Source of the DNA: Gilvimarinus xylanilyticus
Lineage (GTDB): Bacteria > Pseudomonadota > Gammaproteobacteria > Pseudomonadales > Cellvibrionaceae
Length of the DNA stretch: 64,000 bases
Reading direction: 5' to 3'
Assembly: GCF_024195295.1 (NCBI RefSeq)
Contig: NZ_JAMFTH010000005.1
Coordinates: 62,001 to 126,000, forward strand
How positions within the stretch are numbered: position 1 is the first letter of the stretch; each line of letters starts with the position of its first letter. Shown one piece after another: positions 15,166 to 24,547 of this stretch. Under the pieces are notes generated by a model. The model saw only the letters and a program-made list of their open reading frames with translations, did no database searches and had not been told where the DNA came from. The translations under genes and the position numbers were made by a program.

Positions 15166-15276
15166 ACAATAATAGTCTCTATCAGGTGACTCAATCGAAT
15201 ACATACGTATTCAATCCACTTAATGCATGCATACGTATGCAGTCTATTGCGCCCCATTTACCCGCTGCACTAATCT
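15166..15276. promoter_or_regulatory. Divergent starch-regulon promoters with two operators
   Basis: Two 14-bp operators are present: 15200-15213 (TGAATACGTATGTA on the minus strand) and 15228-15241 (perfect palindrome TGCATACGTATGCA); centres are 28 bp apart. Leftward, TTGAGT (15194-15189), 17 nt, TATTGT (15171-15166) drives the glucoamylase. Rightward, TTGCGC (15247-15252), 18 nt, TAATCT (15271-15276) drives the GH13 genes. Each proximal operator ends exactly 5 bp before the TTG. The CG-centred palindrome suggests a LacI-family protein; no such gene is in the window. Confidence 0.75.
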
Positions 15277-15371
15277 TTTGGTCATACAGAGTTTAAGCAC
15301 CCCCGGTGCAAACCCGTAGCACCCCATCACAATAACAAGGCCGGGCAGGTACCTGGCGAGGTAGAAGTTTC

Positions 15372-16991: not shown

Positions 16992-18838
16992 AAATAATCC
17001 GCACGCTCTTGCTTGGCGCCGCTATAACCACCTTTGGCACTGCCCAAGGAGCCGAGGTTGAACGCATAGAACCGCCTTTTTGGTGGGCGGGAATGCAAGC
17101 GAATACTTTGCAGCTGATGGTATACGGCGACGATATTGGTAGTACCGACTCTGTGGTTATTGACAGCGCCGGAGTTTCGGTAACCCAGCTTCACACCGCC
17201 GATAGCCCCAACTATCTGTTTGTGGATTTAAAGCTCGATGATTCGCTTACCGCTAAGCCGGTCACGCTAAAATTTTACGCCGATCAACAACAAGTGGCCG
17301 ACGCTCAGTATTCTTTTAAAGCCCGGCACGTTAACTCGGCACAACGCAAGGGTTTTTCGGCGCAAGACGTTATTTATTTAATTACGCCCGATCGCTTCGC
17401 CAATGGCGATTTAAATAACGACGAAGTAAAGGGATTACGCGAGGGCATTGACCGACAAGCGCCCGGCGGGCGTCACGGAGGCGATATTGCCGGCGTGATT
17501 CAACACCTGGACTATCTTGCCGACATGGGCTTTACCCAGCTATGGTTAAACCCGGTGTTAGAAAATGCCCAAGCCGAGTATTCCTACCACGGCTATTCCA
17601 CCACCGATTTCTACCGGGTGGATCCACGCATGGGGAGTAATAAGCTCTACGTGTCTCTGTCGGACCAAGCCGCCGATAAAGGCATGGGACTCATTAAAGA
17701 TATTATTCTCAATCACTGTGGTTCCGGCCACTGGTGGATGGACGATTTACCCTTTACCGACTGGATAAACTACAACGCCTCCTTCTCTCCCACCAGCCAC
17801 CGACGCGAATCCCTGCGCGACCCACATGCAGCCGAAGTAGACAAACAGGAATTTAACGACGGCTGGTTTGTTCCCACCATGCCGGATTTAAATCAGCGCA
17901 ACCGGTTTATGGCCCGCTACCTGATTCAAAATTCTATTTGGTGGGTAGAGTACGCGGGGCTTTCGGGCATTCGTGTGGACACCTACTCCTACCCGGACAA
18001 AACATTTTTAACCGGGTGGAGCCGAGCGGTAATGGCCGAATACCCTAACCTGAATATCGTGGGTGAGGAGTGGTCGGAAAACTCGGCCATAGTTGCCTAC
18101 TGGCAAGAGGGCAAGAAAACCTTTGACGGTTATCAGTCTTTTACCCCCAGCATGATGGACTTTCCCTGGCAGCGCGCGCTTTTGAATTCGCTGAACAACG
18201 AGGAGTCCTGGGGCGAGGGAATGGTGCAGATGTATCAGGCACTGAGTAACGATTTTCTATACGCCGACCCGTATAACCTGGTGATCTTCCCCGACAATCA
18301 TGACATGAGCCGGATCTATACATCGCTGAATGAAAACTATGAGCATTGGAAAATGGCGATGATTATGACCCTCACTCTGCGCGGCATACCGCAGATATAT
18401 TATGGCACCGAAATTTTAATGACCAACCCGGGGACCGATGATCACGGAGTAATTCGCACGGATTTTCCCGGCGGCTGGCCCGGCGATAGGGTTAATGCCT
18501 TTAACGCCGAGGGGCTAACCGAACAGCAAGCAAAGGCTCAGGAATTTCTCAAATTCTGGCTTAATTGGCGCAAAACCAGTACCGCTGTTACTCAGGGAAA
18601 ACTGATGCACTATGCGCCTCGCGACAGTGTGTACGTTTATTTTCGCTACACCGATAGCGACACCGTTATGGTGGTGATTAACCACAGCGATTCCCCGCAA
18701 AGCGTAGACCCACAAATTTTCGAGCAGCGATTAGCCGGCTTCACCAAAGCGCACCATGTCGAAAGCGAACAGATAACCACACTGTCGCAAGCGCTGCAAA
18801 GCCGAGCGCAATCGGTTTCAGTGTATGAACTGCAATGA
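16988..18838 (+). CDS. Periplasmic GH13 amylase (cyclomaltodextrinase/neopullulanase-like)
   Basis: 616 residues. A signal peptide (MKIIRTLLLGAAITTFGTAQGA) predicts periplasmic location. An N-terminal Ig-like domain (VERIEPPFWWAGMQANTLQLMVYG) typical of cyclomaltodextrinases, neopullulanases and SusA-like enzymes spans to about 115. The GH13 barrel has catalytic Asp331 (SGIRVDTYSYP), Glu360 (IVGEEW) and Asp439 (FPDNHDMSR). It should cut maltodextrins or cyclodextrins that enter through the TonB receptor into short sugars for the MFS transporter. Its TGA stop lies inside the first operator of the next promoter (18836-18849). Confidence 0.9.
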   Translation: MKIIRTLLLGAAITTFGTAQGAEVERIEPPFWWAGMQANTLQLMVYGDDIGSTDSVVIDSAGVSVTQLHTADSPNYLFVDLKLDDSLTAKPVTLKFYADQQQVADAQYSFKARHVNSAQRKGFSAQDVIYLITPDRFANGDLNNDEVKGLREGIDRQAPGGRHGGDIAGVIQHLDYLADMGFTQLWLNPVLENAQAEYSYHGYSTTDFYRVDPRMGSNKLYVSLSDQAADKGMGLIKDIILNHCGSGHWWMDDLPFTDWINYNASFSPTSHRRESLRDPHAAEVDKQEFNDGWFVPTMPDLNQRNRFMARYLIQNSIWWVEYAGLSGIRVDTYSYPDKTFLTGWSRAVMAEYPNLNIVGEEWSENSAIVAYWQEGKKTFDGYQSFTPSMMDFPWQRALLNSLNNEESWGEGMVQMYQALSNDFLYADPYNLVIFPDNHDMSRIYTSLNENYEHWKMAMIMTLTLRGIPQIYYGTEILMTNPGTDDHGVIRTDFPGGWPGDRVNAFNAEGLTEQQAKAQEFLKFWLNWRKTSTAVTQGKLMHYAPRDSVYVYFRYTDSDTVMVVINHSDSPQSVDPQIFEQRLAGFTKAHHVESEQITTLSQALQSRAQSVSVYELQ

Positions 18839-18917
18839 ATACGTATGTAATTCAGCACTGCATAAGAACTGAATACGTATGCAGTGTGTTGTTTGGTCTA
18901 AGGGCCAAGCCTAGTAT
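18836..18917 (+). promoter_or_regulatory. Starch-regulon promoter of the TonB receptor unit
   Basis: Operators TGAATACGTATGTA (18836-18849, overlapping the amylase stop codon) and TGAATACGTATGCA (18870-18883) have centres 34 bp apart. Five bp after the proximal operator comes TTGTTT (18889-18894), then 17 nt and TAGTAT (18912-18917) followed by TAACC. The predicted start is near 18924, leaving a ~90-nt leader. The layout is the same as at 15.2 and 23.4 kb. Confidence 0.75.
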
Positions 18918-19013
18918 TAACCATAGGTAATGTTGGCTTAATAAGATAATCACCGGCATCCGATTTAGACAAGACAGAACAATAAATTATTATCCTGGCG
19001 AGAGGATCCAATC

Positions 19014-21921: not shown

Positions 21922-23412
21922 ATGAACACAAGAATAAAAAACATCGTCGTGCTAGGCGGGGGCACCGCAGGTTGGATGAGCGCGGCTTTGCTCAAAAAAG
22001 TATTGGGCGGCAGCGTCAATATTACTTTGGTAGAGTCCGACGAAATTGCCACCGTGGGCGTGGGCGAGGCCACTATTCCGCCCATTCAGCACGTCAACCG
22101 GGTACTGGGTATCAATGAGGCGGAGTTTCTGCGTGAGACTAACGCCACTATGAAGCTCGCCATTAAATTTGAAAACTGGTATCGCCAGGGTCAGGGCTAC
22201 TTTCATACCTTTTCATCCCCGGGCCAAAGCAGTGCCTTTTGTCAGTTTCATCACTACTGGTTGCGGGCCAAACGCGCAGGTTTAGGAAAAGATTTATGGG
22301 ATTACGATTTAAACTATTTGGCGTTAAGCGCGGGAAAGTTTGCCAAGCTTGAAACCCGCGATCCGCGTTTGGAGCTTCCCTACGCCTATCATTTTGATGC
22401 GGGGCTCTACGGCGCCTACTTGCGTAAAATCAGTCAAGCATTGGGCGTAAAGCGAATAGAGGGCAAGGTTAATCACACCACCATCAACCAAGACACAGGC
22501 GCGGTGGAACAATTGCTACTGGCCTCGGGTGTAGCTGTCAGTGGTGATTTATTTATCGACTGCTCCGGTTTTCGCGCTCTGTTATTGCAACAAAAACTCG
22601 GGGTTGGCTTTGACGATTGGAGCCATTGGCTGCCCTGTGACCGAGCCGTGGCTGTGCCCTCAGAGCGCCTGGCACAAACTCGTCCTTACACTCGTGCGAT
22701 CGCGCATCATTCCGGCTGGCAGTGGCAAATTCCGTTGCAACATCGTCAAGGCAATGGCCTGGTCTACAGCAGCCGCTTTAGCAGCGATGAGCAGGCCACG
22801 CAAACCCTGTTGCAGAATCTAGAATGCCAACCTGTAGCCGACCCTAGGGTCATTCACTTTCGCACCGGACGGGCGCGGCAACAATGGCATAAAAATGTGA
22901 TTGGGGTGGGCCTGGCCAGCGGTTTTTTAGAGCCTTTGGAATCCACCAGTATTCATCTGGTGCAATCGGCCATTGTGCGCTTGCTTAAGTATTTTCCTCA
23001 CACGGGAATTCAGGCCGATGTTGTTAAACAGTACAACCAAGAGTCGCGTATTGAATATGAACAGGTGCGGGACTTTTTAATTCTGCACTATAAGCTTAAT
23101 CGCCGTGAAGACAGCGAGTTTTGGCAGCAGATGGCGCGCATAAGTATTCCCGAGAGTTTGCAGCATAAAATCGATGTGTTTGCGGCTCAGGGCGTACTGG
23201 TACGCGAGCGCAATGATATTTTTGCCGAATCATCCTGGCTGCAATTGCTGCTGGGGCAAGGAGTAGAACCGCGCGACCACCATCCCCTGGCGGGCGCTAT
23301 GGATGAAGCCCAACTAGCAAACTTTATGCAGCAGACCGAACAGCTAAAACGCGAACCGATCACGGCCATGCACTTTCACGATGATTTCTTACAGCGCTTT
23401 GACCAAGCTTGA
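21922..23412 (+). CDS. Tryptophan-halogenase-like flavoprotein of a TonB/sugar locus
   Basis: 496-residue FAD-dependent protein of the tryptophan halogenase family. FAD motif GGGTAGW (12-18), the halogenase signature WQWQIP (Trp266/Trp268), a Lys at 78 in ATMKLAIKFENW matching the catalytic Lys79 of PrnA, and Glu340 in LEPLESTS matching PrnA Glu346 are all present. Many members of this family sit beside TonB receptors in polysaccharide loci, where no halogenated product is known, so the substrate is open: halogenation is possible but not shown. GGAG precedes the ATG. The TGA stop overlaps an operator (23410-23423). Confidence 0.88.
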   Translation: MNTRIKNIVVLGGGTAGWMSAALLKKVLGGSVNITLVESDEIATVGVGEATIPPIQHVNRVLGINEAEFLRETNATMKLAIKFENWYRQGQGYFHTFSSPGQSSAFCQFHHYWLRAKRAGLGKDLWDYDLNYLALSAGKFAKLETRDPRLELPYAYHFDAGLYGAYLRKISQALGVKRIEGKVNHTTINQDTGAVEQLLLASGVAVSGDLFIDCSGFRALLLQQKLGVGFDDWSHWLPCDRAVAVPSERLAQTRPYTRAIAHHSGWQWQIPLQHRQGNGLVYSSRFSSDEQATQTLLQNLECQPVADPRVIHFRTGRARQQWHKNVIGVGLASGFLEPLESTSIHLVQSAIVRLLKYFPHTGIQADVVKQYNQESRIEYEQVRDFLILHYKLNRREDSEFWQQMARISIPESLQHKIDVFAAQGVLVRERNDIFAESSWLQLLLGQGVEPRDHHPLAGAMDEAQLANFMQQTEQLKREPITAMHFHDDFLQRFDQA

Positions 23413-23486
23413 ATACGTATACATGATGAATCAATAATTGAATACGTATGTAGTGGCTTGAGCGATGACGAACCCGGGCGTAGTCT
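23410..23486 (+). promoter_or_regulatory. Fourth starch-regulon promoter, facing no annotated gene
   Basis: Operators TGAATACGTATACA (23410-23423, overlapping the halogenase-like stop) and TGAATACGTATGTA (23439-23452) have centres 29 bp apart. Exactly 5 bp after the second comes TTGAGC (23458-23463), 17 nt, then TAGTCT (23481-23486) followed by TAACC, as in the TonB receptor promoter. Transcription would start near 23493 and run toward a terminator at 23592-23617, with only the convergent xerC 3' end beyond. Confidence 0.7.
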
Positions 23487-23492
23487 TAACCT

Positions 23493-23617
23493 GTGAGCTG
23501 CGGAGTGAGTGTATGGGCACACGTCAGGGCCACCGGGTTCTGGGCTCCGCACATGCAAGTTAGGCATGACCTCCTTGTTATTTTATGTCTTGCGCGGCTT
23601 TGGCCGCGCTTTTTTTA
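23493..23617 (+). ncRNA. Candidate starch-regulated small RNA (or small-protein mRNA)
   Basis: About 125 nt lie between the operator-controlled promoter (-10 at 23481-23486) and a strong intrinsic terminator, with no conventional gene. Visible structure: GCGGAG (23500-23505) pairs with CTCCGC (23545-23550), enclosing GTGT/ACAC (23509-23512 with 23519-23522) and CCA/TGG; then CATGC (23552-23556) pairs with GCATG (23564-23568). A single-stranded U-rich stretch then begins with ACCTCCTT (23569-23576), complementary to a Shine-Dalgarno site. This layout is typical of base-pairing sRNAs. A 16-codon ORF (23513-23563, MGTRQGHRVLGSAHAS) with GGAG 7 nt upstream is the alternative reading. It does not resemble 6S, 4.5S, tmRNA or RNase P RNA. 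Function is unknown. Confidence 0.5.
23592..23617 (+). terminator. Strong intrinsic terminator of the candidate small RNA
   Basis: GCGCGGC (23592-23598) and GCCGCGC (23603-23609) form a perfect GC stem with a 4-nt loop, followed by eight T (23610-23617). The T-run reaches into the xerC stop codon on the other strand. Polarity is clearly rightward. Confidence 0.9.
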
Positions 23618-24547
23618 TTCCTCTTCTTTTTCATCTTTGCGCTTTTGCGCCCGCGGATGGGCCTGATCGTAAACCTTGGCTAAATGCTGAAAATCCAAAT
23701 GGGTATAGATTTGCGTCGTGGAAATATTGGCGTGCCCCAGTAGTTCTTGCACCAAACGCAAATCGGAGCTGGACTCCAACATATGACTGGCAAACGAGTG
23801 GCGCAACATATGCGGGTGAACTGGCTGACCAGTCCCCTGCTGCAGGCTAAGTTCATGCAAACGCGCCTGCACCGCGCGCCGACTAATACGTGTACCACGG
23901 CTACTGACAAACAGCGCCGTTTCCGTCGCGGCGGTTTGCTGAGCGCGCAGAGGTAAGTAGGCGTTAATCGCCTCTAAGGCGCAGCGGCCCACGGGCAGCT
24001 GGCGCTGACGATTGCCCTTGCCGGTCACGCGAACCGTTCCCTCCCGTAAGTCCAGATCGATCAGATCAATACCGATAAGCTCGGCAAGGCGCAACCCCGA
24101 GGAGTAAAACAACTCGACCATGGCGCCGTCGCGACGACTGATAAAATCCTCGCCCTGGACCTCAACGTATTGCCCGACCTGATCCACATCCAGCGTTTTA
24201 GGCAGCTTACGCCCCGCTTTAGGTGCCTGCAGTCCTTCGGCAGGGTTTGCCCCCAGCCAGCCGCGCCGGACTCCGTAGCGAAAAAAGCTGCGCAGCGCCG
24301 ACAACCAACGCTGCAGAGATTTACTGCTGGCGCCATTGCGGTGTTGTTCGGCCAATAGCAGCCGCAAGTCCTGCGTGTGGATGGCACTAAGTTGAGTTAT
24401 ATCGCGCGCGTAGGAAAATTTTTGCAGCTTAAGCAGATCGCGCTGGTAGGCCTCGAGGGTGCGCTCGGATACCTGCTTTTCGCTTCGCAGATAGCGGCTA
24501 AAAGCGTCCAGTTCGGCGGCGAAAGGCAAGTCGGGGACAGAGGCCAT
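23615..24547 (-). CDS. xerC: Tyrosine site-specific recombinase XerC
   Basis: 310-residue chromosome-dimer-resolution recombinase. The N-terminal SAM-like domain (FSRYLRSEKQVSERTLEAYQRDL) is followed by the catalytic domain with Arg in YSSGLRLAE, Lys in VTGKGNRQR, HxLRH (HMLRHSFASHML), ELLGHANIST and the nucleophile Tyr in TQIYTHLDF. It follows DUF484 with a 13-nt gap, completing the dapF-DUF484-xerC order standard in gammaproteobacteria. Assignment as XerC rather than XerD rests mainly on this context. Confidence 0.95.
   Translation of the reverse strand: MASVPDLPFAAELDAFSRYLRSEKQVSERTLEAYQRDLLKLQKFSYARDITQLSAIHTQDLRLLLAEQHRNGASSKSLQRWLSALRSFFRYGVRRGWLGANPAEGLQAPKAGRKLPKTLDVDQVGQYVEVQGEDFISRRDGAMVELFYSSGLRLAELIGIDLIDLDLREGTVRVTGKGNRQRQLPVGRCALEAINAYLPLRAQQTAATETALFVSSRGTRISRRAVQARLHELSLQQGTGQPVHPHMLRHSFASHMLESSSDLRLVQELLGHANISTTQIYTHLDFQHLAKVYDQAHPRAQKRKDEKEEE

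Follow-up and report, generated by a model that had tools for sequence, protein, structure and literature searches.

The window analysed here, a 64,000-nucleotide stretch of the Gilvimarinus xylanilyticus genome, contains a starch cluster made up of an MFS transporter, a GH15 enzyme, two GH13 enzymes, a TonB receptor, a Trp_halogenase-family gene and xerC. The features considered in this work lie at and between the last two genes and are as follows, in window positions:

21922-23412, plus strand: Trp_halogenase-family gene of the starch locus, the upstream neighbour
23410-23423, plus strand: upstream operator TGAATACGTATACA, which overlaps the halogenase stop codon and is kept within the genus
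23439-23452, plus strand: proximal operator TGAATACGTATGTA, with 8 nt from its ATACGTAT to the TTG of the -35
23458-23463, plus strand: -35 hexamer TTGAGC, its TTG present in all eight Gilvimarinus genomes
23481-23486, plus strand: -10 hexamer TAGTCT, behind a 17-nt spacer; TANTNT in all eight Gilvimarinus genomes
23493-23616, plus strand: predicted small RNA of ~124 nt, placed from promoter and terminator
23500-23550, plus strand: domain closed by GCGGAG (23500-23505) and CTCCGC (23545-23550), in the three closest species alone
23509-23522, plus strand: GTGT-ATGGGC-ACAC, inside that domain
23514-23518, plus strand: TGGGC motif, in all eight Gilvimarinus RNAs
23552-23568, plus strand: putative CATGC/GCATG hairpin, formed in the G003 and G. 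chinensis folds
23569-23587, plus strand: CU-rich, then U-rich, largely unpaired stretch ACCTCCTTGTTATTTTATG, a candidate seed or Hfq region
23592-23609, plus strand: intrinsic terminator GCGCGGC-TTTG-GCCGCGC with a 7-bp GC stem, followed by seven T (23610-23616)
23615-24547, minus strand: xerC-like tyrosine recombinase, the convergent neighbour

An earlier note on this DNA had described an operator pair and a TTGAGC-N17-TAGTCT promoter facing the intergenic interval, and both were located there. The GC hairpin it reported is likewise present, with seven base pairs, but the run it counted as eight T has seven; xerC does converge on the interval, its ORF ending at 23615 on the minus strand. The RNA start was placed 7 nt past the -10, give or take 2 nt. 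A sigma-70 consensus scan of the locus did not pick the TTGAGC/TAGTCT promoter, which scores 7 of 12 against that consensus by eye; it is recognisable because it matches other promoters of the regulon. The scan returned two other promoter-like sites, both on the operators themselves (0.2 in shuffles), and one terminator was found in the locus (0.4 in shuffles).

Exact ATACGTAT sites number 24 in the genome of the window against 22 for the reversed control, a count of the exact core that imperfect-core sites would escape. Pairs of TGNATACGTATNCA-like sites were located in five regions, three of them in the window (15200-15241 between the GH15 and GH13 genes, 18836-18883 before the TonB receptor gene, and 23410-23452 at the unit described here) and two outside it, 5' of an alpha-amylase and of a pullulanase gene; the small RNA unit is therefore one of the five paired regulon regions found. 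A single TG-type operator site also lies 5' of a transporter-like gene (L119). We then compared the distance from operator to promoter in 15 stretches around such units. A TTG-N19-21-TANNNT promoter could be placed 4-15 nt downstream of an operator 43 times, 36 of them at exactly 8 nt, where 0.14 would be expected from the shuffled tails of 136 ATACGTAT sites; the sample is partly biased in that some loci were found by patterns containing that spacing, and its GH13, GH15 and TonB-receptor promoters were chosen independently of spacing. By eye, the alpha-amylase and pullulanase promoters of the window's genome do not show the 8-nt spacing.

The centre of the proximal operator lies ~47 nt upstream of the predicted RNA start, outside the core promoter. 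Such a position, outside a weak core promoter and always 8 nt away from the -35, fits activation better than simple repression, and this layout suggests that the regulator of the operator pair is an activator. We infer control by maltodextrin from the operators shared with the GH13, GH15, alpha-amylase, pullulanase and TonB-receptor genes. Nine LacI-type genes are present in the genome; none lies within the window, and no ATACGTAT was found in the ~3-kb loci around the nine. A third ATACGTAT lies within the promoter spacer of the unit in Gilvimarinus sp. 2_MG-2023 (2MG; L190 9768-9836), where it resembles an added repressing site.

The promoter and the GC hairpin with its T-run are found in all eight Gilvimarinus genomes, so that the conservation in relatives called for by the earlier note holds for both elements. 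The distance from the -10 to the end motif of the terminator is 119, 119, 119, 119, 120 and 118 nt in six genomes, and is shorter in G005 (77 nt) and G002 (73 nt). In the window, G003, G. gilvus and G. algae, the unit is flanked by the halogenase gene and by xerC, which converges on it; in G. chinensis by the halogenase gene and, ~500 nt further on, a codirectional large gene; in 2MG by the halogenase gene and a convergent Chondroitinase_B-type gene; and in G005 and G002 by a DUF1552 gene and again a converging xerC. Since the neighbours come in four arrangements, the unit is not a part of any neighbouring gene. A large gene of ~2160 aa is found beside the unit in three species (L179 9705-17605, L180 720-8602, L188 10583-16000), accompanied by a DUF1552 gene in two of the three and preceded by a ATACGTAT site in L180 and L188.

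The best conserved parts of the unit are the operators and the terminator, and xerC converges on it in six of the eight genomes. Both facts are what one would expect if there were no functional RNA here at all, with the operator pair a spare one (an auxiliary site or a titration site) and the terminator shielding xerC from read-through. Yet the -35 and -10 are also kept, at the spacing of the regulon, and the unit persists without an adjacent xerC in G. chinensis and 2MG. The RNA body (the unit minus its first six nt and the terminator) is moreover better conserved in close pairs than four-fold sites of xerC, dapF and the halogenase gene, as available for each pair (the halogenase gene alone for G. 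chinensis): body and four-fold-site identities are.85 and.56 for the window and G003,.80 and.40 for the window and G. chinensis,.86 and.39 for G003 and G. chinensis, and.81 and.53 for G005 and G002, with a weaker pair in G. gilvus and 2MG (.65 and.43). We thus regard the absence of a functional RNA as improbable. The other 23 of the 28 Gilvimarinus body pairs have identities of.39-.65, near the shuffled level (means.47-.49, maxima.58-.60, from 15 shuffles each), and are therefore uninformative about the body.

The GH13 leader, which has the same promoter type and was used as a control, is.56-.60 identical among the three closest species, against.76-.83 for the RNA unit. Among these species the TonB-receptor leader matches the unit in conservation (.78-.92), and a conserved transcript therefore need not be a small RNA. 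That mRNA leader (window 18918-19013;.92 identity to G003,.78 to G. chinensis) has TCCTGGCGAGAGGA preceding its start codon and is possibly a regulated leader. As judged by these alignments, selection acts on the RNA body between close relatives, and the sequence is replaced rapidly over greater distances, a pattern common among small RNAs.

A small protein encoded in the unit, as in SgrS/SgrT, is another explanation. In the window, the ATGGGC has a GGAG seven nt upstream and opens a frame of 16 codons, and TGGGC is present in all eight RNAs. However, frames of at least 8 codons that end inside the RNA vary from 8 to 27 codons in seven of the eight genomes and are absent from G005; frames that run through the terminator likewise differ, from 4 to 113 codons in Gilvimarinus; and no peptide shared among the Gilvimarinus RNAs was seen. 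On the minus strand, AACAAGGAGGTCATG (window 23565-23579) gives an SD-like start in three species with a frame that is not conserved: it leaves two nt between SD and ATG, and by eye the frame is 20 codons long in G. chinensis and lacks a start in G. algae. A coding function is accordingly very improbable. The unit thus combines its own promoter, an intrinsic terminator with a U tail and no conserved coding sequence with constraint above neutral in close pairs, and we consider it quite likely to be an independent, selected, non-coding transcription unit.

We generated predicted secondary structures for the RNA of the window and its relatives. The window RNA is slightly more stable than shuffled sequence, with a z of only -1.98 and 12 of 200 shuffles folding as well. 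RNAalifold on six species retains the terminator alone, with one doubly changed pair. The earlier note had pointed to GCGGAG/CTCCGC and CATGC/GCATG stems and named compensating changes in them as a check. Both stems are present as sequence, but the second is missing from the minimum-energy fold of the window, and the other five Gilvimarinus RNAs lack the two stems by eye. The covariation did not materialise, with every pair unchanged in the three closest species and RNAalifold returning the terminator alone; stems unchanged in the three species that have them are neither supported nor refuted.

The CU-rich CCUCCUUGUU before the terminator is unpaired in the folds of the window and G003 and partly so in that of G. 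chinensis. Its CTCC is kept in G. gilvus, where it is paired in the fold, and in G. algae, is replaced by CTCTTC in G005 and G002, and is gone in 2MG, where the stretch is degraded. CCUCCUUGUU and TGGGC are candidate contact sites and nothing further. An Hfq gene is present in all eight Gilvimarinus genomes. The presence of Hfq would also suit a decoy RNA that sequesters a protein (CsrA/RsmA or Crc-Hfq) in place of an antisense RNA. Decoys of this kind usually carry several sites; by eye, a single GGA occurs in the window RNA, within a stem, and a AANAANAA run is absent, and a decoy therefore seems a very doubtful reading.

Analogous units were sought in 144 genomes of the family with a pattern made up of an operator, a -35 and, at a small-RNA-like distance, a G followed by a T-run. 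This pattern matched 25 genomes, seven of them Gilvimarinus, and 21 loci were read; we would like to note that the patterns used beyond the genus are narrow, and that a genome without a match is not thereby shown to be without a unit. Several of the 21 loci are plain gene leaders and some were left unclassified. Three matches of a first, shorter-gap pattern were rejected as GH13 gene leaders by reading frame. Units ending in a terminator were found in G008, G120, G123 and G130, of genus g2 (probably Cellvibrio), and in G026, of g20. A query with one g2 unit matched in 6 of 21 g2 genomes, and an exact g2 core pattern in 7 of 21, which are all its matches among the 144. All seven g2 units have an operator and promoter upstream and lie beside starch genes, as does that of G026; the units of G008, G123 and G130 have a single operator and not a pair. 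In G068 a unit lies at C1, about 871,440-871,580. The seven g2 RNAs have TATCGTCGCTGTTGAT in common directly 5' of the terminator, which for G039 is owed to the choice of pattern; TATCGTCGCTGTTGAT was not found in the Gilvimarinus genomes. Across genera the units have in common the promoter, the starch-gene location, a C/U-rich stretch and the terminator type, and nothing more.

In G120 and G026 a codirectional pullulanase gene follows the unit immediately, no further operator intervening, and in G026 the pullulanase frame runs open through unit and terminator, although a better start lies past the terminator (an ATG with GGAG in front and, by eye, a signal-peptide-like sequence). In these two genomes it is plausible that the unit is a terminator-containing 5' leader or attenuator of the pullulanase gene, which elsewhere would survive as a remnant where that gene is not adjacent. 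Among the eight Gilvimarinus genomes, seven have a convergent gene after the unit and the eighth, G. chinensis, has an unrelated large gene; the window's own pullulanase gene lies elsewhere (C1:1940898), behind an operator pair and a short leader of its own; and a remnant should not keep its length, promoter, terminator and a body of 80-86% identity. Hence we consider a leader or attenuator an improbable origin for the unit as a whole.

A scan with the Rfam 15 covariance models, covering the window and the loci of five relatives with the g2 and g20 units left out, gave no match at the gathering score, in agreement with the earlier note that no known RNA family is recognisable. The best sub-threshold match by E-value is SorX (20.1 bits against a gathering score of 46.6, E 0.01), and sub-threshold matches mostly end at the terminator. 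No small RNA of Gilvimarinus or Cellvibrio japonicus was found among the papers searched, judged by title and abstract. The paper on C. japonicus RNA-seq on starch (GSE206866; PMC10714805), which also names a data set on glucose (GSE90955), reports on protein genes, and in the portion available to us no small RNA was noticed; in the main text of a LacI-regulon survey (PMC4052901) the term 'small RNA' is absent. Sugar-regulon small RNAs are already known, and this unit would add its own regulon type and host group.

Spot 42 and SgrS are sugar-linked, Hfq-dependent antisense RNAs, controlled by CRP or SgrR. The unit differs from both in standing under regulon operators, and neither family was matched by Rfam in the window or the five relatives' loci. 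A parallel in function is Vsr217 of Vibrio, which is reported to be made with the maltose regulon and to repress fbp (PMC8265627), thus showing that wiring from a maltose regulon to a small RNA exists. The unit would resemble Vsr217/CtrR in that these are described as maltose-regulon-induced, trans-acting and Hfq-dependent in an E. coli reporter (PMC8265627, PMC10370196), and in G120 and G026 its counterpart precedes a starch gene, just as malK is preceded by Vsr217. In contrast, Vsr217 is MalT-controlled and is located within the 5' UTR of malK, no Rho-independent terminator being predicted between the RNA and malK, whereas the unit has operators of another type, stands alone, has a strong terminator and shows fbp pairing within the range of shuffles. 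Its neighbours are the halogenase, DUF1552 and xerC genes and others, and no position 5' of malK under MalT was found for it. MalH of E. coli is, like the unit, tied to maltose uptake, but is described as an intermediate in the degradation of the 3' end of malG (PMC8081044), unlike a unit with a dedicated promoter. The MalR starch/maltodextrin regulon of Shewanella likewise brings together GH enzymes, a transporter and a TonB receptor, all governed by a regulator of the LacI type, and the sections of that paper available to us list no RNA gene (PMC2996990), unlike the Gilvimarinus locus.

The separate small-RNA-like unit under a starch-regulon promoter that the earlier note proposed is thus borne out by its operators, promoter, terminator and conservation in all eight genomes of the genus. 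Given this anatomy and conservation, the independence from neighbours and an Hfq gene in the host, we favour, with moderate confidence, a trans-acting, probably Hfq-dependent antisense RNA that is independent and controlled by the starch regulon. The interval would be a gene in its own right, specifying a ~124-nt non-coding RNA and turned on together with starch uptake by a regulator recognising the TGNATACGTATNCA pair common to the GH15, GH13, TonB-receptor, alpha-amylase and pullulanase promoters. Transcription induced by maltodextrin would yield an RNA with its 3' end at the intrinsic terminator; it would most likely act in trans with Hfq through the unpaired CU-rich (anti-Shine-Dalgarno) stretch CCUCCUUGUU, which may pair at ribosome-binding sites and so lower the translation of mRNAs unwanted during growth on starch. 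It is possible, though we think it unlikely, that the Gilvimarinus, g2 and g20 units are one fast-evolving family of small RNAs in the starch regulon, which imposes a hierarchy among polysaccharides in specialist degraders and, in some lineages, also serves as a pullulanase leader; were this so, sensed starch would shut off the translation of other polysaccharide systems through anti-SD pairing. Gilvimarinus and Cellvibrio are degraders of plant and algal polysaccharides, and an RNA wired into the starch regulon would give a handle on the choice between polysaccharides. The public RNA-seq of the relative C. japonicus on starch may already contain the answer, with the reservation that standard libraries may miss small RNAs.

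Pairing with fbp was assessed on 10 FBPase leaders from seven of the eight genomes in a crude test (whole-length duplexes, starts called mechanically), in which the best leader was equalled by 13 of 200 mononucleotide shuffles. G. gilvus (G004, ~850 contigs) has no class I fructose-bisphosphatase match; the other seven genomes have one or two. Among 18 regulon leaders from six genomes, the GH13 leader of the window alone stands out (6 of 300 shuffles as good, with a 10-nt exact complement), and this pairing has no repeat in the relatives. The SD-like complement AACAAGGAG precedes an ATG in 48 cases in the eight genomes, three of them the unit itself on the antisense strand; the reversed control gives 18, and SD sites by themselves would produce such a difference. 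The genes downstream of 16 other matches in G000, G003 and G007 (the other 29 were left out) include nothing convincing. One gene, perhaps a GH9 cellulase by resemblance, is common to G003 and G007 and is not among the G000 matches; near-identical, orthologous-looking leaders recur with other seeds too, and it was therefore given no weight. The g2 core, searched against the leaders of seven stretches, gave two 9-nt matches and no more, in genes of a single type. Finally, the GH13 leaders of six species, that of the window at 15277-15371 among them, repeatedly contain ACAATAAC motifs, which resemble A-rich Hfq/Crc sites.
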